A stretch of DNA of 56,773 bases from a virus. The stretch covers positions 1 to 56,773 of the IMG/VR virus record IMGVR_UViG_3300025128_000043. One strand, 5' to 3'. The notes beneath the pieces are model-generated. The model worked only from the letters and a program-made list of their open reading frames with translations. It ran no database searches and was not told the origin of the DNA. Shown piece by piece: positions 1,891 through 23,921 of this stretch (position 1 is its first letter; every line of letters starts with the position of its first letter). The position numbers and the translations under genes are program-made.

Positions 1891-3675
1891 CTAAGAAGAA
1901 AGCGTGTAAACGCTTAGTTTCTCGCTCTTGCCTTTGACTTCGATGGAATCTAGGTACTCCACCATATCAGGAACCTCTTGAGCAGTAGCCTCTCCGATCA
2001 ATACATCCTGCTCGTATTTTCTAGTGCTGGACTCTAACCTGGCAGCAACATTCACCGAATCACCGATAGCGGAATAGTCAAATCGCTTGTCTCCCCCGAC
2101 ATTGCCAATAACGCAAGGGCCAGTGTTGACTCCGATGCCAATGCCTAGCCTGGGCAATCCTTCTGCTTCTATTTCTTTGTTCAGTTCTTCCAATGCCACC
2201 AACATCATTGCGGCACAAGTCACTGCCCGTTCTTGATGGTCTTCACAGTCAACTGGTGCGCCCCAGAACGCCATCACGCAATCGCCCATGTACTTGTCTA
2301 TCGTTCCATCCAGTGATAGCACTACATCTGTCAATGCTGAAAGCAGTCTGTTGATAAGAGTCACTAACCCTTGGGGATCGTTGTTATTCTTGAAATGCTC
2401 TGAGATGGGGGTGAAGCCAACGATGTCGCAAAAGAGGAAACTTAATGTCTTGGTATCACCACCTAATCTCATCAGGGAAGGGTCATCGACCAACTGCTGA
2501 ACTAATTTTGGGGAAACATATGTCCCAAACATCCCCTTGATCTGGAGCTTTTGCCGATACTCGCTAATCATTCTCTGCCCAACACCCACTGAACCGATGG
2601 TCAGGCTACACAGAATAGGCCATGCCGCATCGACCAATATACCAGCCCTTAAATAGCCTAAGACCGATCCTGTTGCCGTCAGAGCGCCGACAACGACAAT
2701 GCCTAGTGGAACACTCATCACAGGCAAACGGCTTGCAGAGAAGGCTGTGAGCAGTCCTATGGCTAATATCAGCAAGACTTCTCCACCCAAGGCCCAATTT
2801 GGGCGAACAGGCGAGGTTCCTGCCAACAAAGTCTCGAACAGTGTCGCTTGAATCTCATGTGGAAACATAAGACCCCTCGGAGTAGGTACGAGCGGAGTAA
2901 TACCAGCCGCAGTCACACCCACAAAGATGATAGTACCTTCTGTCGGTTGCTGGGCAAACGTGGTTCCCCAATCAATCCATACCCTTCCTGCTGAATCAGT
3001 ATTGATGGTATCGAAGTTAGGCACTCTAACCGCCTCTATGCCTGTCTCAGAGCCTCTGACTTGGTAGGAAGGATCACCAGCCAGTCCACGCAAAACATCA
3101 AGCCCAAGGGCCGGATACAGGCTCTCACCAACCCTGACCACCATCGGCACTCGTCTAACTAGACCATCGACCTCTGGGGCCGTGTTAACTATGCCCGTAC
3201 CGATAGCTGAGTCCTGCAATACCTGCACATTCGGCAGGATGCCAGGGTAGTTAATGGCGTTTTCATTGACCTGACCCAGTGTGGCTACGCCGATATGCCA
3301 GCCTTCCTGTCGATCTGTGCTGGTTGTAGCTACGGCTGAGAGAAATGTTGGTAGTTGCCCCATGCTCTCGGCAAATTCAGCATCACCCCCAAATCGGTCT
3401 GTTTCGGGGAATAAAACCGAATACACAACTGCCGCTGCCCCTGAATCGAGAAGATAACGGTTAAGCTCTGCAAGTTGCTGACGAGGCCAGGGCCATTGAC
3501 CCCCCTCGGCTAATGCGGCTTCGTCTATGTTGTAAAGAGAAATGTTCTGACTTTGAACTGGCTCGGTAATCGTAAGCAGAGCATCAAAATACTTGAGTCT
3601 CAGAGTTTCTACAGGCCAGGGATCGACAACACGAAGAAGTAATAATCCAGCCAGCAAAGCAAGTAAAACCTTCAA
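1891..3675 (-). CDS. CHASE2-domain class III adenylate/guanylate cyclase
   Basis: A membrane cyclase of 594 residues. An N-terminal membrane helix (about 1-20) precedes an extracytoplasmic CHASE2-type sensor (about 25-285), three membrane helices (about 298-365) and a catalytic domain (about 405-590). Key residues are all present: metal-binding Asp417 in FCDIVGFT and Asp465 in KYMGD, substrate-selecting Lys461 and Asp533 (RFDYSAIGD), and transition-state Asn542 and Arg546 in VNVAARLE. The Lys/Asp pair favours ATP, so the product is probably cAMP. It is the last gene of the late operon. In bacteria CHASE2 cyclases often neighbour FecR-domain genes, as here. Confidence 0.9.
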   Translation of the reverse strand: MKVLLALLAGLLLLRVVDPWPVETLRLKYFDALLTITEPVQSQNISLYNIDEAALAEGGQWPWPRQQLAELNRYLLDSGAAAVVYSVLFPETDRFGGDAEFAESMGQLPTFLSAVATTSTDRQEGWHIGVATLGQVNENAINYPGILPNVQVLQDSAIGTGIVNTAPEVDGLVRRVPMVVRVGESLYPALGLDVLRGLAGDPSYQVRGSETGIEAVRVPNFDTINTDSAGRVWIDWGTTFAQQPTEGTIIFVGVTAAGITPLVPTPRGLMFPHEIQATLFETLLAGTSPVRPNWALGGEVLLILAIGLLTAFSASRLPVMSVPLGIVVVGALTATGSVLGYLRAGILVDAAWPILCSLTIGSVGVGQRMISEYRQKLQIKGMFGTYVSPKLVQQLVDDPSLMRLGGDTKTLSFLFCDIVGFTPISEHFKNNNDPQGLVTLINRLLSALTDVVLSLDGTIDKYMGDCVMAFWGAPVDCEDHQERAVTCAAMMLVALEELNKEIEAEGLPRLGIGIGVNTGPCVIGNVGGDKRFDYSAIGDSVNVAARLESSTRKYEQDVLIGEATAQEVPDMVEYLDSIEVKGKSEKLSVYTLSS

Positions 3676-3938
3676 TGTACGTCATACTCCCACCATTGAA
3701 TGATCGCAGACCACGGAATAACCATTGGTGTGTTAATAATATCAGGGTGTTTCTCGTAAATATCAGTGGATAAAATCAGACACTCTTCATTGTCTTTAGA
3801 AATAACATATCCTACGGTTGATCGCAGGACAGGAAGAAGCTCCATTGCGTCTTTCATCGTTACATCTTTTGGGTCGATCCAAGCATCCTCCCATATGACC
3901 TGAGCAATTTTATGTCGAGTGCTAAAACTGTCTACCAT
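3672..3938 (-). CDS. Unknown 88-aa protein
   Basis: Starts MVDSFSTRHK and ends QWWEYDVH. Overlaps the genes on both sides (stop over the cyclase start, start inside the basic-protein gene), consistent with one transcript. It reads as a small soluble alpha/beta protein: IAQVIWEDAW, then a strand VGYVISKD, then CLILSTDIY. No named family is assigned. Small phage proteins that combine a W-x-D-A-W start with a GYVI strand are familiar, but their role is unknown. Confidence 0.65.
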   Translation of the reverse strand: MVDSFSTRHKIAQVIWEDAWIDPKDVTMKDAMELLPVLRSTVGYVISKDNEECLILSTDIYEKHPDIINTPMVIPWSAIIQWWEYDVH

Positions 3939-4222
3939 TTAACTTTATTTGCCCAATAAGCCGCACTCATTTTGCCTTTCTTAATGTTTTTTCCATGTCT
4001 TGCTTTGAAAGATTTTCGTCTGGCTTTCTGCTTGGCAGACTCTCCAGCTTTAGGCTTACCCGCCGTCTTGACCCCCTGCTGGCCGAAACGAATGGTCTTA
4101 ATTTTGTCACCTTCTTTGGCAACAACAATGTGAGACTTCTTTGGATGATTCGGGGTGCGCTTTGGCTTATTAAAACCAGCAACACCCGCCCTCGCTAATC
4201 TTGGATCTTTTTTCTTTGGCAT
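3932..4222 (-). CDS. Very basic small protein, 96 aa
   Basis: Start set at ATG 4222 (MPKKKDPRLARAG), overlapping the stop of the upstream gene by one base; a GTG three bases earlier is less likely. Lys and Arg dominate. The middle holds a short beta-like segment (SHIVVAKEGDKIKTIRFGQQG), followed by a basic helix rich in KAGESAKQKARRKSFKARHG and a C-terminal AAYWANKVKW. It belongs to a run of four basic proteins. I know similar proteins from large marine phages without a proven function; DNA binding is inference. Confidence 0.7.
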   Translation of the reverse strand: MPKKKDPRLARAGVAGFNKPKRTPNHPKKSHIVVAKEGDKIKTIRFGQQGVKTAGKPKAGESAKQKARRKSFKARHGKNIKKGKMSAAYWANKVKW

Positions 4223-4473
4223 CACTTCCCAGCCTTTCTGTATTTACGGGTTTTTTTGGCTATCTTCTTAGGTTGTTTACTGACCTTCTTGCCTTTTTTG
4301 GTATCTTCTCGCTTTTTTCGAGTAGTTGCAGCGTATTCTTTAGAAGATAGCGCCTTAATTGCAGCACTCGGTAAGTACCTTTCACCTGTCTTTGCTGAAG
4401 GCTTACCACTTTTAGTACGCCATTTCTGCTTTGTCCAGGCTTTGAGGGACTTTTGAGATTTTTTCAAAGCCAT
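4222..4473 (-). CDS. Very basic small protein, 83 aa
   Basis: Starts MALKKSQKSLKAWTKQKW. The segment RTKSGKPSAKTGERYLPSAA followed by IKALSSKEYAATT resembles small proteins seen in marine phages, then a long Lys-rich tail to the stop. No catalytic motif is seen. Its stop overlaps the start of the next gene. Charge and size suggest nucleic-acid compaction or a virion-packaged protein; this is inference. Confidence 0.7.
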   Translation of the reverse strand: MALKKSQKSLKAWTKQKWRTKSGKPSAKTGERYLPSAAIKALSSKEYAATTRKKREDTKKGKKVSKQPKKIAKKTRKYRKAGK

Positions 4474-4655
4474 TACTTACCCCACTGACTCTTGGCTTTT
4501 TTCTTGGCAGTCTTGCCCAAATCGCCGTAATGAAAAATAGGCTTGCTCGTTTTAGTGTGTGTTTTGTTGGTGTGCAATGCACCATCAGGCATCTTGTGAT
4601 ATGAACCCTTCCATTCCTTACCGTCTTTCAGGTAATGCTTAACATTCATTCCCAT
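4473..4655 (-). CDS. Very basic small protein, 60 aa
   Basis: Starts MGMNVKHYLKDGKEWKG. A core of GSYHKMPDGALHTNKTHTK looks like a short beta-hairpin module that recurs in small phage proteins. Ends KKKAKSQWGK. Adjacent to basic proteins on both sides, with start and stop touching. Function unknown. Confidence 0.7.
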   Translation of the reverse strand: MGMNVKHYLKDGKEWKGSYHKMPDGALHTNKTHTKTSKPIFHYGDLGKTAKKKAKSQWGK

Positions 4656-4846
4656 TACTTATAACCTCCGCCTTTTGCTTTATATTCTTTAGCAAGCATT
4701 TGAGCTTTTCTAGCCGACCATTGACCTGCCTTACCGCCCTTAGTTCCTGCTTTAATCTTGTTAAACAGGTTTTTTCTCATGGTAGGCTTTGTATAATTGC
4801 CAGCCTCATTAACTTTTGACTTAGTTTTAGTTTTTTTCTTTGGCAT
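4655..4846 (-). CDS. DUF5872-like very basic protein, 63 aa
   Basis: The C-terminal half (GGKAGQWSARKAQMLAKEY followed by KAKGGGYK) matches, from memory, the DUF5872 core found in cyanophages and other large aquatic viruses (pattern GQWSARKAQ...YK..GGGYK). The N-terminal half is a Lys-rich lead. It is the first of the four basic genes and lies eight bases after the upstream curlin gene. Function unknown. Confidence 0.65.
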   Translation of the reverse strand: MPKKKTKTKSKVNEAGNYTKPTMRKNLFNKIKAGTKGGKAGQWSARKAQMLAKEYKAKGGGYK

Positions 4847-4854
4847 CTTGACCC

Positions 4855-5640
4855 CTAATCAAACTGATTAATTGTGACAGTTTTATTGCAATTAGATGTG
4901 CAATCAAGGGTTACTGTGTAACCTTTTGCACTTACCCCTGTTTGCGTAGCATTAACCGTATAGTTTCCTTGGGCTACAGTAATATTAGAAACATGAGCGC
5001 CATCCCCGCTCTGAGTTAAATTCACAGTGGAATTGTCGCTTGGGTTATTCTTAAACTCGATATCCCCATCTTTATTGCCTGAACCGCTCTGAGTAATCGT
5101 GGCATCGTTATTGTTACAATTATTACAAGACTTGATATAGGCATTGTGATCGCCTGATCCTGATTGAGTTACAGTCCATGCGCTGTCATCACCAAACGCA
5201 TAAAACTTGGCGTAATGCTCACCTGATCCTGATTGAGAAATGGTGTAAACATTATCATCGCCTGACATATAAACTTCAGCTTCCAAGTCATCGCCCGTTT
5301 GGGTGATTGTCATTTCGTTATTGTCTTCATCGGCATCTATGTAACCAATATTATCATTGCCATCCTGATTAATAGTGTACTCATTCCCCGTGTGATTGGT
5401 GTATTGACTATACGCTTTGGCAAGATTGCCTGTTCCATCCTGATCTATGTCAATAGTGGCGCTGGAGCAGGTATGGGTAGTATAGGTTCCGTTACTCAGA
5501 CCACACCAAACTCTCGCTGTGTTACCCGACCCGATCTGGTCTATATAAATACTGGTATTGGAACCTTTAGTGTCAATCTCTACAGAGTTATCTGATGCCC
5601 ACAGAGGAAAACTAAGGAGACTGATTAATATAAATCGCAT
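4855..5640 (-). CDS. Curlin-repeat protein (CsgA/CsgB-like), 10 repeats
   Basis: A secreted protein of 261 residues. The signal peptide is MRFILISLLSFPLWA, cut before SDN. The rest is built of curlin-type strands of form x-I/V-x-Q-x-G-x-x-N, about 20-25 residues apart: IYIDQIGSGN, IDIDQDGTGN, YTINQDGNDN, YTISQSGSGE, WTVTQSGSGD, ATITQSGSGN, VNLTQSGDGA and others, ending VTINQFD. In curli these strands stack into an amyloid fibre. Three Cys pairs are present, unlike E. coli CsgA, which has none. It is exported presumably by the CsgG-like pore encoded upstream in the same operon. Confidence 0.85.
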   Translation of the reverse strand: MRFILISLLSFPLWASDNSVEIDTKGSNTSIYIDQIGSGNTARVWCGLSNGTYTTHTCSSATIDIDQDGTGNLAKAYSQYTNHTGNEYTINQDGNDNIGYIDADEDNNEMTITQTGDDLEAEVYMSGDDNVYTISQSGSGEHYAKFYAFGDDSAWTVTQSGSGDHNAYIKSCNNCNNNDATITQSGSGNKDGDIEFKNNPSDNSTVNLTQSGDGAHVSNITVAQGNYTVNATQTGVSAKGYTVTLDCTSNCNKTVTINQFD

Positions 5641-6694
5641 TTTCTCCTCCCCCGTTAATAATAATGTCCAGTTTTTTCCCTGCCGTCATTACAGAAATAT
5701 TGTACGCATTGCCCTTGTCAAGCTCTAAATCAAAGGTATTTTCCACGCTACGATAAACCGTCAGCACTTCCCCTTCAACAAACGTATAGGTCTGATTCTG
5801 TTGATCGAAACCAGGCAGAATACCCTCTATTTGCACTCCGCTTATTTCTGCTACTTCTTTTTTCTCGGTTGCCGATACCTCAATAATGTCCAGTAAGTCA
5901 GTCAGGAAATCGACATTCAACAGGTCAATGTCCAACCTGCCAATCTCGTCCTGTAATTCATCCTCGTCCAGTTCATTCTCATCAAGCTCTGTTTCTTCAA
6001 GCAAATCCACATCTAGGATGTTAGAAGCCGTGCCTGATTGTTCTTCCACCACCTCGGTAATCTCGTCAGGGGGGCTGACAATAAGCAGGTTGTCGATGAA
6101 TCCCAGTGTCATATTCGATAACACAACGGGCCGTGTCGGAGCCGCCTCTGAAACAGTGGTCATGGTTGCCTGAAACGGCTGGTTTAATACCACCACACTG
6201 GTAGCTGTTTCTACAGTAATCTCACCACTGGAACTCCCGTCTTCATTGGGCAGCAGGATAACCAGGCTACGGCCTATCTCGTCCACAGTAGTAGTAAAAT
6301 CCGTGCCTCGTATCGCAATAGTCGCGGTGGGTGTGCGGATTGCAATATTTTCTTTATTAATCCTGCCTAATGCACCTGTAAGGAACCTTGCTGTACCACT
6401 TGCCATGTTCAATGCTAAACGGCTACGAGCAGGATCAGGATCAAACACAAAGTCATCTATAACAATCTTGCTGTGTTCCGTGAGCCTTAAAACGGAGTCA
6501 TCCAGAAAAGATATTGCGAGCCTGCCGTTGCCAGTACGCACATCATCGTAACTGGCAATGTCTAAGTCCAGTTCTGCTGTAAGAGAATCTGTGGTGTCTT
6601 GTCGAACAACCTCACCGATACCGCGAAGCTCGGTTATCTCACCAACCTGAGCATTAACTGCCAGTGGAAAAAGAACTAACAGCCACTTGTGCAT
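5612..6694 (-). CDS. Secreted FecR-domain protein with a curlin-like C-terminal strand
   Basis: A protein of 360 residues with a signal peptide (MHKWLLVLFPLAVNA, cut before Q). Residues about 16-160 form a FecR-type domain: a region of G-E-V-V-R-Q, a DVRTGNGRLAISFLDDS core and the conserved IAIRGTDFTT. An acidic linker (ETELDENELDEDELQ) follows, then a C-terminal beta domain. The last residues (GENAIYINQSP) match the first strand of both curlin proteins (NSIYITQSG and TSIYIDQIG). FecR proteins normally sense signals in the periplasm; here the domain could anchor or nucleate the fibre. It overlaps the genes on both sides. Confidence 0.8.
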   Translation of the reverse strand: MHKWLLVLFPLAVNAQVGEITELRGIGEVVRQDTTDSLTAELDLDIASYDDVRTGNGRLAISFLDDSVLRLTEHSKIVIDDFVFDPDPARSRLALNMASGTARFLTGALGRINKENIAIRTPTATIAIRGTDFTTTVDEIGRSLVILLPNEDGSSSGEITVETATSVVVLNQPFQATMTTVSEAAPTRPVVLSNMTLGFIDNLLIVSPPDEITEVVEEQSGTASNILDVDLLEETELDENELDEDELQDEIGRLDIDLLNVDFLTDLLDIIEVSATEKKEVAEISGVQIEGILPGFDQQNQTYTFVEGEVLTVYRSVENTFDLELDKGNAYNISVMTAGKKLDIIINGGGENAIYINQSP

Positions 6695-7389
6695 TGGTCA
6701 ACATCAATCACGCCACTGGTTGTAGTCGCAACGATATCAAGCACGTTGCTCACGCTACCGCCGTTACTGGTCTGGTCTACGTCAATATTGTTACTGTTTC
6801 CTGTGATATTTGCCGTAATAGAATGATCTGAGTTGTTGGCTTGGGTCGTGTCTATATCGTTAGAATCACCGTCAACCGTCCAGTTATTCACACATCCGAC
6901 CACGTTGCATGTCACAGCCAGGTTATTTGACGTTCCGCTAACATCGAAGTCGGCGTTCGCGGCTGTTGCTGTTGCTGCATCACCCTGAGTGTATACCAGC
7001 ACATTGGAGTCTCCAGTAGCAGCAAAATCGAAGTCGGTATTCTGGACATCACCTGTTGCGCCAAGCGCCAGCGTCTGCGTATTAGAATCACCAGTAGAAG
7101 ACAACGTGAAGCTAGTTGAGTTACCCTGTGCCACTGTCGCTGCAATCACATTTGAATCACCAATCTGGTCAATATCAACAGTCATACCTGTTCCTGTAAG
7201 GGAAACTCTTGCATTGCTAGTGCCTATTACGTTTGAGCCACCAATCTGGTCGATATTCATCGTCAATGCTGACGACCCACCGCTTTGAGTAATATAAATA
7301 GAATTGTTTGCCGCTAATGCAGAAACAGCAAACGCTAAGAACAACAAATAAAAGGCCCAGACTACACAAAAGTTAATTAAGATTTTCAT
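6676..7389 (-). CDS. Second curlin-like repeat protein
   Basis: A protein of 237 residues. A long signal peptide (hydrophobic up to about residue 26, ending SALA) precedes ANNSIYITQSG. Degenerate curlin strands follow: MNIDQIGGSNV, VDIDQIGDSNV, then copies in which Q is lost but G-x-S-N is kept (STGDSN, ATGDSN, SGTSNN, DGDSND, TGNSNN). It ends IDVDQCTSGC. The pattern is less regular than in the 4855 protein, so one may be the main subunit and this one a nucleator or minor subunit, as CsgA and CsgB are; that is inference. It overlaps csgG by 17 bases. Confidence 0.8.
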   Translation of the reverse strand: MKILINFCVVWAFYLLFLAFAVSALAANNSIYITQSGGSSALTMNIDQIGGSNVIGTSNARVSLTGTGMTVDIDQIGDSNVIAATVAQGNSTSFTLSSTGDSNTQTLALGATGDVQNTDFDFAATGDSNVLVYTQGDAATATAANADFDVSGTSNNLAVTCNVVGCVNNWTVDGDSNDIDTTQANNSDHSITANITGNSNNIDVDQTSNGGSVSNVLDIVATTTSGVIDVDQCTSGC

Positions 7390-8203
7390 TTTCGGTCTCC
7401 TCTGTTTGTGGCTGATAATCCCACAAGTCCTGTGCTATGCCCTGATGCACTATTTCAAGCACTGCTTGCTCAATGGCACTCCTGACGGCATAGGTTGCTG
7501 TTTCATTTCTAGCAACGCCAGCTTCAACCTCAACTAATTCAGTACCGTTTTCCGTAAATCTAAACGTATCAAATCCCGTTGATGTTGAATATACCTGTTT
7601 ACTGGTGATTACATTTAATAAAATTTGTCCGGTTTGCACCAAAACAACTCTGAGAGCCACTGTAACCTCGTCTACGCGATGTTGTGCGTTAAGCCCTATG
7701 CCCAGATACCTAGCGCCTATACCGCCGCTTCTGAGGTTTGTGTCGTAACCAATGATACCACCTGACATTATCAATCCGCTGAACAACAATGGCTGTAGCT
7801 GGTTTGCACCCTCACCGTCATAAGTGCTTCTGGTGGATATAATCAGTTGTCTTTCCCGCGTGAGGGAGTCTAATTCACCCCGTTCCGCGATTAAAAACCA
7901 TTTTCCATCTCCCGCAGCCATGAGTGCGTCAATCAGGAAAGAATCAGCCCCCTGCGTTACAGCAGTAGAAAATAACGCCATGTTATCCGCCGTGGCCCTT
8001 TGTCCGGTCATATCCAAAAAAGAATAAACGCTAACTACAGCCTTCTGGCGTGGCATGGGTAAATTAACCAGTTCTGTCAGCGTAGGGCGCTTTACCTCTG
8101 GTGGTGGCGAGCAGTAATTACTTAGCGTCCCGCATCGGTACGGATCAACACTAACACAACCAGAAAGTGCTAATACTGCTAAACATAAAGTTAGATACCG
8201 CAC
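7373..8203 (-). CDS. csgG: CsgG: curli secretion channel lipoprotein
   Basis: A protein of 276 residues aligning along its length with E. coli CsgG from memory. A lipoprotein signal ends LSGC, so Cys16 would be lipidated. Conserved blocks: VVSVYSFLDMTGQ (56-68), FSTAVTQGA (78-86), WFLIAERGELDSLTRERQL (102-120), GGIIGYDTN (148-156), SGGIGARYLGIG (159-170) and LWDYQ near the end. CsgG forms a nonameric outer-membrane pore. At the channel constriction F56 is kept (Phe78), but E. coli N55 is Leu77 and the Y51 position has no Tyr. It overlaps csgF by 13 bases, the same order as in curli operons. Confidence 0.95.
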   Translation of the reverse strand: MRYLTLCLAVLALSGCVSVDPYRCGTLSNYCSPPPEVKRPTLTELVNLPMPRQKAVVSVYSFLDMTGQRATADNMALFSTAVTQGADSFLIDALMAAGDGKWFLIAERGELDSLTRERQLIISTRSTYDGEGANQLQPLLFSGLIMSGGIIGYDTNLRSGGIGARYLGIGLNAQHRVDEVTVALRVVLVQTGQILLNVITSKQVYSTSTGFDTFRFTENGTELVEVEAGVARNETATYAVRSAIEQAVLEIVHQGIAQDLWDYQPQTEETENENLN

Positions 8204-8655
8204 TCGTCCGTACTACAAATACCGAAAGTTCCCACAGGGATTCTTATTTCGGTAATTGCTCCGTCTGTATCAGTAACTGTCAAAACGATTTCAGTACCTG
8301 TATTAACAAAGGCAATGCTGTTGCCTTCCAGATCAATAACGCCGCCTGAACCACCTGTCTCAGAGTTAAACAAAGATTCTGCTAAATCTCTGGAAAGCTG
8401 GGAAAAAATTCTTGATTCAAGATTTCTTATAAATTTTGCAAGCGTAGTGTTTTCCTCAGCCCTTAGTGCTTCTTCTGCCTTGGCCTCAGCTTCCTCCCGA
8501 AGAGACTGTTTGCGGCTACGCTCCTGCTCGTCAATGGTCAGATAATGGGCTGACTGTCCTATGCCATTAAAAGAAGGGTTTTTGAATTGAAATACAAGAT
8601 CGCTGGCTACTACAGGAGTCGCAAATAAACTAATCGTTATCAACCACTTGTTCAT
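8191..8655 (-). CDS. csgF: CsgF: curli assembly factor
   Basis: A protein of 154 residues with a signal peptide (MNKWLITISLFATPVVAS). The mature N-terminus contains FQFKNPSFNG (22-31), matching the E. coli CsgF segment FQFRNPNFGG that inserts into the CsgG pore. A charged helical insert (EEAEAKAEEALRAEEN) follows, then IRNLESRIFSQLSRDL and a C-terminal beta region (EIVLTVTDTDG), also as in CsgF. CsgF caps the CsgG channel outside the cell and helps nucleate curlin. It overlaps csgG downstream and the small membrane protein upstream. Confidence 0.93.
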   Translation of the reverse strand: MNKWLITISLFATPVVASDLVFQFKNPSFNGIGQSAHYLTIDEQERSRKQSLREEAEAKAEEALRAEENTTLAKFIRNLESRIFSQLSRDLAESLFNSETGGSGGVIDLEGNSIAFVNTGTEIVLTVTDTDGAITEIRIPVGTFGICSTDECGI

Positions 8656-8893
8656 CTTTTTGCTCCCTCAACTCAATGACTGTATCCAGTTTCTGTTGTA
8701 GTCTAATGATGTCATTATCGAGCATCCTTATTCTGTCAATCAAAGCGATCAAGGTAACATTAGCATCTGCCAGTTTTGCCTTGATATTGTTGGTGATGAA
8801 GTTCCAGATGAAATGAATCATATAGAGCAAGCCCACCGTAGCGACTATCGGAAAGCCGTATTCGCTGACCGCTGCCGCTATACCTTCCATCAA
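8630..8893 (-). CDS. Small membrane protein with coiled coil (paralogue of 8890)
   Basis: A protein of 87 residues: a short N-terminus, one membrane helix (about 14-36, starting FPIVATVGLLYM), then a helical tail rich in Asp, Arg and Leu (LDNDIIRLQQKLDTV). Its neighbour at 8890 has the same plan and shared words (GFPI at the membrane start, DI-I/V-RL in the tail), so the two look like a tandem duplication. The layout resembles BhlA/UviB-type holin-like proteins, but no family is certain. Confidence 0.65.
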   Translation of the reverse strand: MMEGIAAAVSEYGFPIVATVGLLYMIHFIWNFITNNIKAKLADANVTLIALIDRIRMLDNDIIRLQQKLDTVIELREQKDEQVVDND

Positions 8894-9171
8894 TCTCGCC
8901 TGGCATCTTCTTTCCCATCGGCTCTGGCAATTCTATTCAAATCGGGCCTGATACCAAGAACACTACACATCGTTGCGTCAAGTCTGACAATATCATGGTT
9001 CATCGTTTTTACGCGATTATCAAGGGATTGCACAATGCCGTGTATGCCATTCACCTGCCCGATAACGCTCTCAAGAATATATTTGATGGTCAGAAATATG
9101 AAGAACCCTGCAATCAAAGCAATAGCAATGGGAAACCCTACGTCACCGATCAGGGCAAAAGCCTCGTTCAT
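8890..9171 (-). CDS. Small membrane protein with coiled coil (paralogue of 8630)
   Basis: A protein of 93 residues: a membrane helix (about 12-34, GFPIAIALIAGFFIF), then a coiled-coil-like segment (VQSLDNRVKTMNHDIVRLD) and a charged end. The start and stop overlap the flanking genes by four bases. Related in layout to its neighbour. A holin-associated or membrane-anchoring role in lysis fits the place and topology but is not shown. Confidence 0.65.
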   Translation of the reverse strand: MNEAFALIGDVGFPIAIALIAGFFIFLTIKYILESVIGQVNGIHGIVQSLDNRVKTMNHDIVRLDATMCSVLGIRPDLNRIARADGKEDARRD

Positions 9172-9512
9172 TCTTCCTCACCCTTAAACTTCTTAGACTG
9201 ACCAGAGGTTCCAGCATAAATGCCAAAGACTGCTGCCATAGCACCGACAACAACCGACACCAATCCTGCCTGCTCTAAATTAGGCTCATCAATAGTCATA
9301 AACCACATGACAACTGCGTACAGCAAATAAATGTAAACACCCACAAAGACCCTTGGAAAGATACGCCACGCATCAACAGTTCTAGCCAGATGTATCCATT
9401 TCTGATACGGGTTTATACCAATATTGTTAGGTGTTACTTCAAGCTCAAGATTAACTTTCTTTTTGATTACGTCATTTTCAAGAATGACCGTTGGCCCATC
9501 TTTTTCAATCAT
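9168..9512 (-). CDS. Holin-like membrane protein
   Basis: A protein of 114 residues with two predicted membrane helices, about 57-74 (VFVGVYIYLLYAVVMWF) and about 84-104 (LVSVVVGAMAAVFGIYAG), and a charged C-terminus. The N-terminal 50 residues are polar. Two helices with a short loop and proximity to spanin-like genes suggest a holin or related membrane protein of the lysis cassette. No named family assigned. Confidence 0.55.
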   Translation of the reverse strand: MIEKDGPTVILENDVIKKKVNLELEVTPNNIGINPYQKWIHLARTVDAWRIFPRVFVGVYIYLLYAVVMWFMTIDEPNLEQAGLVSVVVGAMAAVFGIYAGTSGQSKKFKGEEE

Positions 9513-9514
9513 AA

Positions 9515-9922
9515 TTATTCTTCCGTTGTTTCAGCCTCATCTTTTCGAGTCGGGTCATTATCCCTATAATATTTAATAATATTAAGGACTTGGCGTATAT
9601 ACCTTCTCACATCTGCAAAATTATTGGAAAGGTTTTCATAGCCCTGAGAACTCAATCCGTAGTAGGCCATAGCTGGCGCATCCCCTTCATCATAGTTTTC
9701 TATGTACTCGCGCATCACAGAAGGATTCAGGACTGTCCATTCCACCTCAGAGGGAACCACAGACTCTGGTAGGGGGGGATGATACATAGGTGCAGGCTCG
9801 GTAATTGTAACCACCTCAACGGGCCTGACTTCAGGAACAGCAGTGCTTCCCCCGAACAGACCGCCCATTGTCGAACATCCTTGCAGCCATAACAGGCTAA
9901 TCAGCAGAAACCACTTCATCAA
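9515..9922 (-). CDS. Lipoprotein, candidate outer-membrane spanin (Rz1-like)
   Basis: A protein of 135 residues whose signal ends LLWLQGC, a lipobox placing the lipidated Cys at residue 16. A proline-rich stretch (PAPMYHPPLPESVVP) follows, typical of outer-membrane spanins. It overlaps the 3' end of the coiled-coil inner-membrane gene by 26 bases, the classic overlapping spanin arrangement. It is longer than usual for Rz1, so a specialised lipoprotein is possible. Confidence 0.6.
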   Translation of the reverse strand: MMKWFLLISLLWLQGCSTMGGLFGGSTAVPEVRPVEVVTITEPAPMYHPPLPESVVPSEVEWTVLNPSVMREYIENYDEGDAPAMAYYGLSSQGYENLSNNFADVRRYIRQVLNIIKYYRDNDPTRKDEAETTEE

Positions 9923-10316
9923 ATTGTCTCGGATTTGTTAACGCAGCTAGGGCTTCACCCACCTGCCTTGTGCCTCGGTTAACGGCATTTTCAATTAACC
10001 CAGGTCGTGCAATCGCCAGAGAGTTTAAGTCATGCCTGGCAAATGTATTGCGTAATTGCGTCACTTCCTGACGGGCTTCATCATTAGCCTCAGAAAGCTC
10101 TGCGATACGCGCTTGATTAACTCTTTGATTTTCCAGTTGTTCTTGCAACTGCGTATTCTGATTAGCAATCGTGCTTTCCAGAACCGCCTGATTGTTAACC
10201 GCAGTCTGTAACTCTACCTGTAACCGCTCTATCTGAGCCTTCTGCATATTGATATAGAAGTAAGAGCCTGCGGCAGTGGTTATCAAGGCAAACCCAAGAA
10301 GCAGGCTGAGTTTCAT
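9897..10316 (-). CDS. Inner-membrane spanin candidate (Rz-like)
   Basis: A protein of 139 residues: an N-terminal membrane anchor (about 3-23, LSLLLGFALITTAAGSYFY), then a long coiled coil (about 25-95; IERLQVELQTAVNNQ and QARIAELSEANDEAR) and a C-terminal tail. This is the expected form of an inner-membrane spanin that spans the periplasm to pair with a lipoprotein partner and fuse inner and outer membranes at lysis. The start overlaps the stop of the upstream 1056-residue gene. Confidence 0.7.
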   Translation of the reverse strand: MKLSLLLGFALITTAAGSYFYINMQKAQIERLQVELQTAVNNQAVLESTIANQNTQLQEQLENQRVNQARIAELSEANDEARQEVTQLRNTFARHDLNSLAIARPGLIENAVNRGTRQVGEALAALTNPRQFDEVVSAD

Positions 10317-22421: not shown

Positions 22422-22844
22422 TCAATATTCTCCTGTTCTTATCATCTCTGTTAATGTTTTAGCTCTGTTTCCAACCTGTCCAGACCATCTGGAGTCCATA
22501 AACTGATCGGCTGCTTCGTTCCAATCCCCAGAAGCCATGCCTGCAAGCGCATTCTTAAAGGCTCTAAGGCGTGTTTGTCCTAAATTAAAGCTAATATCAA
22601 TTATTGCATCCTGCCGAACTCTATCAAGACCAGCAAACCAGTCATATTCAGAGTCCAATTCTGCATAAACACGGTCAATATCGTTCTGTAAAAGATAGTC
22701 TATCTCGTCCTCAGACAAGCCAATACCACCTTCAGGGTCTATATTGCGCCCAACCCCTACAGTGATTTTGGATGCACTGCATTCATAAGCATGGCTTTCC
22801 ACGCCCTCATGCAACTTCAGCATTTCAATCAACTTTTCTCGCAT
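22422..22844 (-). CDS. T4-type lysozyme (GH24 endolysin)
   Basis: Start set at ATG 22844 because GAAGGA precedes it and the upstream stop TAATG overlaps it. The product has 140 residues. The catalytic pattern is E-8aa-C-5aa-T: Glu in LHEG, Cys in YEC and Thr in KITVG; Asp is usual at the middle place, but Cys is a known alternative in GH24. GRNID and GQTRLRAFKNALA continue the fold. No signal peptide, so it would need the holin to reach the peptidoglycan. It stands right after the holin and a small soluble gene in the operon. Confidence 0.9.
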   Translation of the reverse strand: MREKLIEMLKLHEGVESHAYECSASKITVGVGRNIDPEGGIGLSEDEIDYLLQNDIDRVYAELDSEYDWFAGLDRVRQDAIIDISFNLGQTRLRAFKNALAGMASGDWNEAADQFMDSRWSGQVGNRAKTLTEMIRTGEY

Positions 22845-23026
22845 TACTTTTCCTTCTTCACCCAAGCCTCATTTTCTTCTGTAGCAGGGTCATCAGCAAC
22901 ATAATGGCCTTTGCTGTTTCTAGCCCTAACGAGGTCTTCTTTGAGAATACTTTTAATCTCCTCTACAACCTCTTTATTGGCCTCATGGGGAGAAAAAAAA
23001 CTAATGATTTTTTTGAACAAATTCAT
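22844..23026 (-). CDS. Unknown 60-aa protein between holin and endolysin
   Basis: Starts MNLFKKIISFFSPHEANKEV. A hydrophobic, basic N-terminal helix (FKKIISFF) is followed by charged residues (VEEIKSILKEDLVRAR) and an acidic end. Four-base overlap with the holin gene and five-base overlap with the lysozyme gene put it firmly in the lysis unit. A membrane-peripheral helper role is possible but not shown. Confidence 0.65.
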   Translation of the reverse strand: MNLFKKIISFFSPHEANKEVVEEIKSILKEDLVRARNSKGHYVADDPATEENEAWVKKEK

Positions 23027-23195: not shown

Positions 23196-23921
23196 CTAAT
23201 TGACAATCTGTCGTGCGACTGTATTTTCGTTAAAACGATCCATGTCCCATACATTCAAGTTAGCTGCAACTGTTCTTCTTTCGCCTGGCCCTTCAAAGGG
23301 ATAGACCATGTGCTGAAGCCAACTTGGAAACATATAAAGTTTTCCTACCTGCGGTTGCAGAGAAGTAGATTGAGGTGGACATAAACGCTCCACATCCATC
23401 AAAGAATTTTTTCCATATTGAAAACATAAGTACCCATCGCAAGCTCCACTGGCGTTGTAAAGGTTATAACTCGGTGTACCTGCTGTTGGTTGATCCAATA
23501 TTTGCTGCGGAACTTTTGTCCACGTTGTTACCGAAAGTCCCATTATCGTCTTGGTTCCATGATCGTGAATAGGGTTATAGTCCCTTTCAAAAGAATGAAC
23601 CGACCAAAGCTCATCGACCTCAACTTTTCTGGTTCCAGACAGCATATTTCCAGTCTGTTGACCAAAATGTTTAAGATACTCAATGCCAAGACCACAGATC
23701 AGATCAGAAAATTCCTTTAACTCAGGAACTTCGTGATTCATCGTCAACTGTTGCCCATGCTTAATCTGTCCTACCAGAGTGCCTGCATGGGAACGACGCT
23801 CCTCGCTCTCAAGCAATTCATCAAGATACTGATTTAGATTAACCACCATCTCGCCTGGCAAGTCTGTCTCCAGCATAAATGCTGCTGGTAATGTCCAGAT
23901 ATTGACGTTTATATTAGCCAT
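23196..23921 (-). CDS. 2-oxoglutarate/Fe(II) dioxygenase-like protein
   Basis: A protein of 241 residues. The iron-binding triad is visible: NPIHDHG gives His-x-Asp, and a distal His lies in LQHMVYPFEGPGERRTVAA, where Arg contacts 2-oxoglutarate. The layout is that of phage-encoded 2-oxoglutarate oxygenases of the TIGR02466 or related type. The target is unknown; host or virion protein hydroxylation or tail modification are possible. It lies between the fibre genes and the holin. Confidence 0.75.
   Translation of the reverse strand: MANINVNIWTLPAAFMLETDLPGEMVVNLNQYLDELLESEERRSHAGTLVGQIKHGQQLTMNHEVPELKEFSDLICGLGIEYLKHFGQQTGNMLSGTRKVEVDELWSVHSFERDYNPIHDHGTKTIMGLSVTTWTKVPQQILDQPTAGTPSYNLYNASGACDGYLCFQYGKNSLMDVERLCPPQSTSLQPQVGKLYMFPSWLQHMVYPFEGPGERRTVAANLNVWDMDRFNENTVARQIVN

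Follow-up and report, generated by a model that had tools for sequence, protein, structure and literature searches.

Curli-type export genes have been reported from ocean phages before. csgF and csgG were described in pelagimyophages in 2020 (PMC7029224), and in 2022 a type VIII secretion system (T8SS) unit that also contains a FecR-domain gene and an adenylate cyclase gene was described in nine HTVC023P-type genomes (PMC9599517). The passages of the latter that deal with the unit place csgF, csgG, a CsgA/B gene, the FecR gene, a second CsgA/B gene and the cyclase gene in a row in podophages, call the FecR gene an iron regulator, put a histidine kinase, sometimes two, always ahead of the curli unit, and report expression of viral curli genes in metatranscriptomes. 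The passages of PMC9004378 on the Methylophilales phage Melnitz state that csgA and csgB are lacking; contrary to this, the GenBank record of Melnitz names two curlin-repeat proteins. Here, we analysed the IMG/VR virus record IMGVR_UViG_3300025128_000043 over its full length of 56,773 bases (hereafter the window). Judged from its genes, the window holds a pelagiphage-type T8SS module, i.e. the order csgF-csgG-curlin-FecR-curlin-cyclase in a tailed phage, and is a further member of a kind of cassette already known from related ocean phages. A preliminary description of the window had mentioned csgF/csgG-like genes in some pelagic phages, which is confirmed by HTVC008M, Melnitz and the relevant passages of PMC7029224 and PMC9599517. 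Added here to the published accounts, as far as those passages go, are a curlin-type strand at the tail of FecR, small membrane proteins without a kinase domain, a chromosomal locus in Hyphomonas and spanin genes adjoining the cassette.

Terminase, portal, head and tail genes lie on the same contig as the csg genes, and a piece of bacterial chromosome was rejected as the source for this reason; the join to a bacterial chromosome for which the preliminary description had allowed is not the case. The portal protein shares 45% identity each with those of HTVC023P and 023Pt_psg01. TerL is 54% identical to that of HTVC027P and 58% identical to those of 023Pt_psg01 and phage DSL-LC04, with 53-58% to the nearest HTVC023P-type records and less than 60% to every phage record found. 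By these related proteins the window virus is classed as an HTVC023P-like podovirus. Like the window, the HTVC023P-type module lacks CsgE and has a small gene or two upstream according to the passages of PMC9599517; the HTVC023P-type records differ from the window in TerL (at most 58% identity) and in GC content, which is 45% in the window versus 35% in the first 50 kb of HTVC023P. The host of the window virus need not be Pelagibacter. Pelagibacter phage HTVC008M and phage Melnitz have the six-gene order of the window; their CsgG proteins, 46% and 40% identical to that of the window, respectively, sit in a separate group of the CsgG tree, and spanins of the window family are not found nearby.

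In the window the six genes follow one another on the minus strand, and adjacent frames from csgF to the second curlin gene (curlin 2) overlap by 13 to 29 nucleotides (nt), the csgF/csgG overlap being 13 nt. Open reading frames (ORFs) and Pfam matches bear out the preliminary description in that csgF, csgG and two curlin-type genes occupy 4855-8655 on this strand, with csgF and csgG overlapping, as a curli export unit that a phage carries at the end of its late operon. The four genes are real, but the unit as drawn there missed the FecR gene between the two curlin genes and the cyclase gene beyond these coordinates: the operon extends to the cyclase downstream and to small membrane-protein genes upstream (8630-9171). 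CsgG is an outer-membrane pore lipoprotein by its Pfam match (Table 1) and its match to solved CsgG in the PDB (2.3e-45). CsgF is a T8SS component by its Pfam score of 53.6 bits versus a cut-off of 25.8, and its N-terminal FQFKNPSF aligns with solved CsgF, though the profile match is weak (E 0.088). Residues F24, P27 and F29 of CsgF are present in 78/79, 79/79 and 79/79 viral rows, respectively.

Curlin 2 is a curlin-repeat substrate, with a Curlin_rpt score of 60.3 bits versus a cut-off of 20.7 and six repeat stretches; among solved curlins it matches 8c50 at 1.5e-8 and E. coli CsgA 8enq at 0.0048. Chance occurrence of curlin repeats was rejected for this protein on the Pfam match, the pattern counts against shuffled sequences and the match to a solved curlin. 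The first curlin-type protein, curlin 1, is accepted as such because it aligns across 33 cassettes and its model is a beta-solenoid (mean predicted local distance difference test score, pLDDT, 86.5); it contains five matches to the curlin half-repeat pattern versus a family-wide shuffled mean of 1.9. The proposal of two curlin-repeat proteins with signal peptides thus stands for curlin 2 and for the signal peptides, which were recognised by eye, while curlin 1 lies below the Pfam cut-off. A comparison with solved proteins, a check suggested at the time, recovered CsgG and curlin 2 at the values given above and CsgF only at E 0.088, and nothing matched the curlin 1 model in Foldseek at E 0.001.

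A scan of IMG/VR for CsgG covered at least 600 stretches, at least 584 of which encode a CsgG relative, and 80 loci were kept for counts made with profiles derived from the window and from the phages HTVC008M and Melnitz. By these numbers an amyloid exporter in a phage is less unusual than had been supposed. Of the 80 loci, many of which lie on incomplete contigs, 77 had CsgF, 71 FecR and 59 the cyclase, and the gene-order search proposed earlier found the full six-gene order in 32 of the 37 IMG/VR loci with room for it. Loci L006, L054, L067 and L083 have one curlin fewer by the filter used (L006 and L054 show one under a looser listing), and in L022 the cyclase was undetected. Since the order is kept to this extent, we argue that the genes act together. 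Eighteen larger virus records carried the window-type portal in eight cases and a T4-type gp23 in one; the rest may be fragments.

The FecR domain of the modelled cassette FecR resembles the signalling domain of PupR (Z 15.6, root-mean-square deviation 2.5, 135 residues), with a weaker match to the 'cell surface anchoring domain' 5ix9 (Z 7.2); a search of solved sequences with the FecR profile gave no match of use (best E 1.2). The protein ends in a strand that resembles the first strand of curlin 1. With identical proteins counted once, here as in the cyclase and CsgG tree sets, a C-terminal [IV]xIxQ occurs in 65 of 66 distinct FecRs, the sole exception being that of the Hyphomonas locus L085, and in 1 of 5425 other eight-residue windows of the same proteins. 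A stricter half-repeat pattern falls within the last 16 residues of 61 of the 72 FecRs in a wider set that includes contigs of metagenome-assembled genomes (MAGs), against a background of 13% in shuffled FecR tails and 3.7% in other windows; of the 11 without it, seven are IMG/VR loci in which the variant is shifted, three are MAG contigs and one is L085. FecR-type iron-dependent anti-sigma regulators carry an anti-sigma domain and a membrane helix ahead of the periplasmic FecR domain. In the cassette protein the FecR domain starts at most about 50 residues from the hydrophobic start, and FecR is the only domain that passes its Pfam cut-off. On these features of the sequence, the label 'iron regulator' used in PMC9599517 is not borne out; the words C-terminal, transmembrane and signal peptide are absent from the main text of that publication, the part considered here.

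Of the 76 loci in which 700 nt or more are available upstream of csgF, 75 have one or two small membrane proteins of a single family ahead of this gene, the sole exception being the Hyphomonas chromosome. In 72 of these they lie at most 100 nt from csgF; in the other three, L069, L070 and L084, the distance is 762 nt. Within the phage collection the family occurs only in the six cassette-bearing records. From their position and number, these are probably the 'histidine kinase' genes of PMC9599517. The proteins, of about 90 residues, gave no kinase match, the only Pfam hit of the 93-residue one being YvrJ at 0.0032, below the cut-off, and a HATPase_c domain was found in all 14 control genomes but in none of 12 virus records, which are mostly fragments; the kinase label for the genes upstream of csgF is likewise not borne out by the predicted products. 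The second copy has a weak match to a holin PHROG (0.0021).

At the other end of the cassette, the cyclase of the window has the residues of a class III catalytic site, which we take to be two metal-binding Asp (D417, D465), the adenine-recognising Lys and Asp (K461, D533) and the transition-state Asn and Arg (N542, R546). All six are found in 45 of 57 distinct cyclases; 12 have an altered adenine Asp, and Melnitz alone has an altered transition-state Asn. In the Melnitz cyclase (L002 10655-12706) Ser replaces both the residue equivalent to N542 and that equivalent to D533, and this enzyme may be inactive or altered.

Spanin genes were counted in the podophage-type group, defined as all loci outside a list of 21 that were set apart on the basis of the CsgG tree. 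Of the 52 loci of this group having CsgF and cyclase, 31 have a spanin-family gene at most 3 kb from the cassette; it is downstream in 28 (on the opposite strand in one) and upstream in three, and in most cases it directly follows the cyclase. Where there was room at both ends, 15 of 25 such loci had spanins. Among the remaining groups (HTVC008M, Melnitz, MAG contigs and Hyphomonas) spanins of the window family were near the cassette in 0 of 15 loci, or 0 of 7 with room, a count in which divergent spanins could be missed. In 24 of 76 loci the 114-residue protein, a possible holin, is encoded no more than 1.5 kb upstream of csgF. The features of the window are collected in Table 1. In addition, three of the small ORFs between curlin 2 and the cyclase were scanned and gave no Pfam match. 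Endolysin-like (22422-22865) and 2OG-Fe(II) oxygenase-like (23196-23921) genes lie amid structural genes, distant from the spanins, and 43857-44708 matches an anti-restriction PHROG strongly (6.9e-67).

Table 1. Features of the cassette and its surroundings in the window.
Feature	Position	Strand	Evidence
Small protein, 93 residues; one hydrophobic segment followed by a charged tail, probably a coiled coil	8890..9171	-	Hydropathy
Second copy of the same small membrane-protein family, 87 residues; overlaps csgF	8630..8893	-	Hydropathy; PHROG 18771 1.3e-26 (unknown function)
csgF	8191..8655	-	Pfam CsgF 3.3e-14
csgG; lipoprotein-type start LSGC (by eye)	7373..8203	-	Pfam CsgG 3.8e-48
Curlin 1; signal peptide (by eye), beta-solenoid with curlin-type strands	6676..7389	-	Alignment and model
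FecR-domain protein; signal peptide (by eye), FecR domain, acidic linker, C-terminal beta domain	5612..6694	-	Pfam FecR 1.8e-11
Curlin-type strand, last 14 residues of FecR	5615..5656	-	C-terminal [IV]xIxQ
Curlin 2; signal peptide (by eye), curlin repeats	4855..5640	-	Curlin_rpt 1.7e-16
Five small ORFs between curlin 2 and cyclase, four Lys-rich (Lys-rich run 3932-4846)	3672..4846	-	
CHASE2 adenylate cyclase	1891..3675	-	CHASE2 1.4e-35; Guanylate_cyc 5.8e-21
114-residue protein, two hydrophobic segments, possible holin	9168..9512	-	Hydropathy; PHROG 10198 (unknown function)
Rz1-like and Rz-like spanin pair	9515..10316	-	PHROG 812 2.9e-13; PHROG 739 2.6e-11

The relation of the phage cassettes to bacterial loci was followed in a quick CsgG tree of 157 rows made without bootstrap, in which one branch (support 100) separates a viral side of 86 rows: 74 viral rows, two isolates, seven viral-looking MAG contigs, two contigs of one Rhodobacteraceae MAG (L087, L092) and Hyphomonas L085. 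The window CsgG, entered as L004, is placed among 65 rows that are all viral (support 97), a group to which HTVC008M and Melnitz do not belong. CsgG of a 1.5-kb 'Salmonella phage' record (L003, OR851715.1) groups with Pseudomonas, and this record is probably bacterial DNA. FecR was found in 8 of 80 loci from genome contigs, and 7 of these 8 are viral-looking, with CsgG inside the viral clade and small membrane genes upstream in six of seven, the seventh having 223 nt of room. These contigs (L086, L088, L089, L090, L091, L093, L094) come from MAGs named Bacteroidota, Pelagibacter and Synechococcus, carry a viral-type cassette and look like binned phage contigs.

The eighth locus, L085 9465-15488 on a 705-kb contig of Hyphomonas sp. 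TMED17, is surrounded by TonB receptors, acetyl-CoA hydrolase, FAA hydrolase and other chromosomal genes. It has csgF (Pfam 8.8e-18), csgG, a curlin-like gene, FecR and a CHASE2 cyclase in this order; the curlin-like gene encodes 504 residues with 15 regex matches and has no Pfam match at 1e-5. L085 differs from the window in having a single curlin-like gene, no small membrane proteins and a FecR without the curlin-type tail. Because its CsgG is a long branch inside the viral clade, Hyphomonas as donor and as recipient are both possible, and the locus may be a virus-derived island. It qualifies the statement in PMC9599517 by which bacterial curli operons do not include FecR and cyclase. A search for further chromosomal cassettes with FecR in 385 genomes of the class returned the query itself and a next best match at 3.5e-19. 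CsgF was found in 34 of 299 genomes of the order, where the 30 kept loci are mostly 3.4 kb and too short to show FecR or cyclase.

Taken together, we lean slightly towards a reading in which the infected cell builds a CsgG:CsgF pore, exports curlin-type fibres and reports export or assembly as cyclic AMP (cAMP) via FecR and the CHASE2 cyclase. Late in infection, CsgG would form the outer-membrane pore and be joined by CsgF; the curlin-type proteins would cross the inner membrane by their signal peptides, exit through the pore and assemble into beta-solenoid fibres on the cell. Periplasmic FecR and the CHASE2 cyclase would be a sensor pair with cAMP as output, a speculative assignment made because a FecR-domain protein lies beside a CHASE2 sensor in a biofilm-linked Burkholderia operon, BiofilmReg (PMC5192318). 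In that operon the FecR-domain protein has a signal peptide as well as a LysM domain, and the output is a histidine kinase (the CHASE2 protein) with a response regulator, unlike the cyclase of the window; the passages of PMC5192318 on the operon name no curli genes. More tentatively, the tail strand may let FecR meet curlin by strand addition, as a subunit sensor or as a nucleator or anchor. A bolder version, a self-monitoring exporter in which the FecR strand binds periplasmic curlin or nucleates the fibre and CHASE2-derived cAMP tracks assembly and retunes host physiology or, in view of the spanins next to the cassette, the approach to lysis, is in our view unlikely. The benefit would probably be a changed cell surface, speculatively via aggregation or shielding from other phages. 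Several results weigh against the reading of exported, cAMP-reported fibres. CsgE, a gate that is not universal in T8SS, had no match in the window record, the only record searched, with a positive E. coli control; the gene is likewise lacking in pelagiphages and Alphaproteobacteria according to passages of PMC9599517. Curlin 1 scores below threshold with Curlin_rpt (0.018, 15.4 bits versus 20.7), and in VIA-align its model matched general beta-helices (best SufB-SufD, Z 18.1), no curlin being among the best 50 matches listed. The FecR model is of low overall confidence (mean pLDDT 66.8, linker poor), a phage cAMP receptor was sought as a cNMP-binding protein in 12 virus records without a match, and no clumping was seen with Melnitz in the account given in PMC9004378. 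Finally, the spanin neighbourhood in the podophage-type group also suits a role in lysis.

Such a role, an idea raised in passages of PMC9004378, would have the CsgG:CsgF pore and the small membrane proteins serve the timing or course of lysis, the curlins being secondary. The adjoining spanins of 31 of 52 podophage-type loci agree with it, as do the single hydrophobic segments of the small proteins and their weak holin match, but window-family spanins adjoin none of the 15 loci of the other groups, and the conserved curlins, FecR and cyclase are left unexplained; we hold a lysis device to be improbable, and the outer-membrane pore formation near lysis named in the preliminary description may apply, in view of the spanins in the podophage-type loci. 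The absence of a CsgE match in the window record would also suit an ungated CsgG that admits nutrients or cofactors to the infected cell, as considered in passages of PMC7029224 and PMC9599517; CsgF and two curlin-type genes, needless for a bare pore, are however kept with CsgG, which makes uptake quite improbable. Fibres destined for the virion or for debris released after lysis would fit the position of the unit in the late operon, where structural and spanin genes are its neighbours. However, the products have signal peptides (by eye) and an outer-membrane exporter of their own, which speaks for secretion by a living cell; this explanation is very unlikely, and the earlier suggestion of fibres attached to virions has found no support.

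With at least 584 viral CsgG relatives in IMG/VR, at least hundreds of viral contigs carry an amyloid exporter. The parts of the cassette call two published labels, histidine kinase and iron regulator, into question. The strand that ends FecR, the almost invariant small membrane proteins and the adjoining spanins are separable parts, and they make the ideas of aggregation, shielding, lysis and uptake testable.

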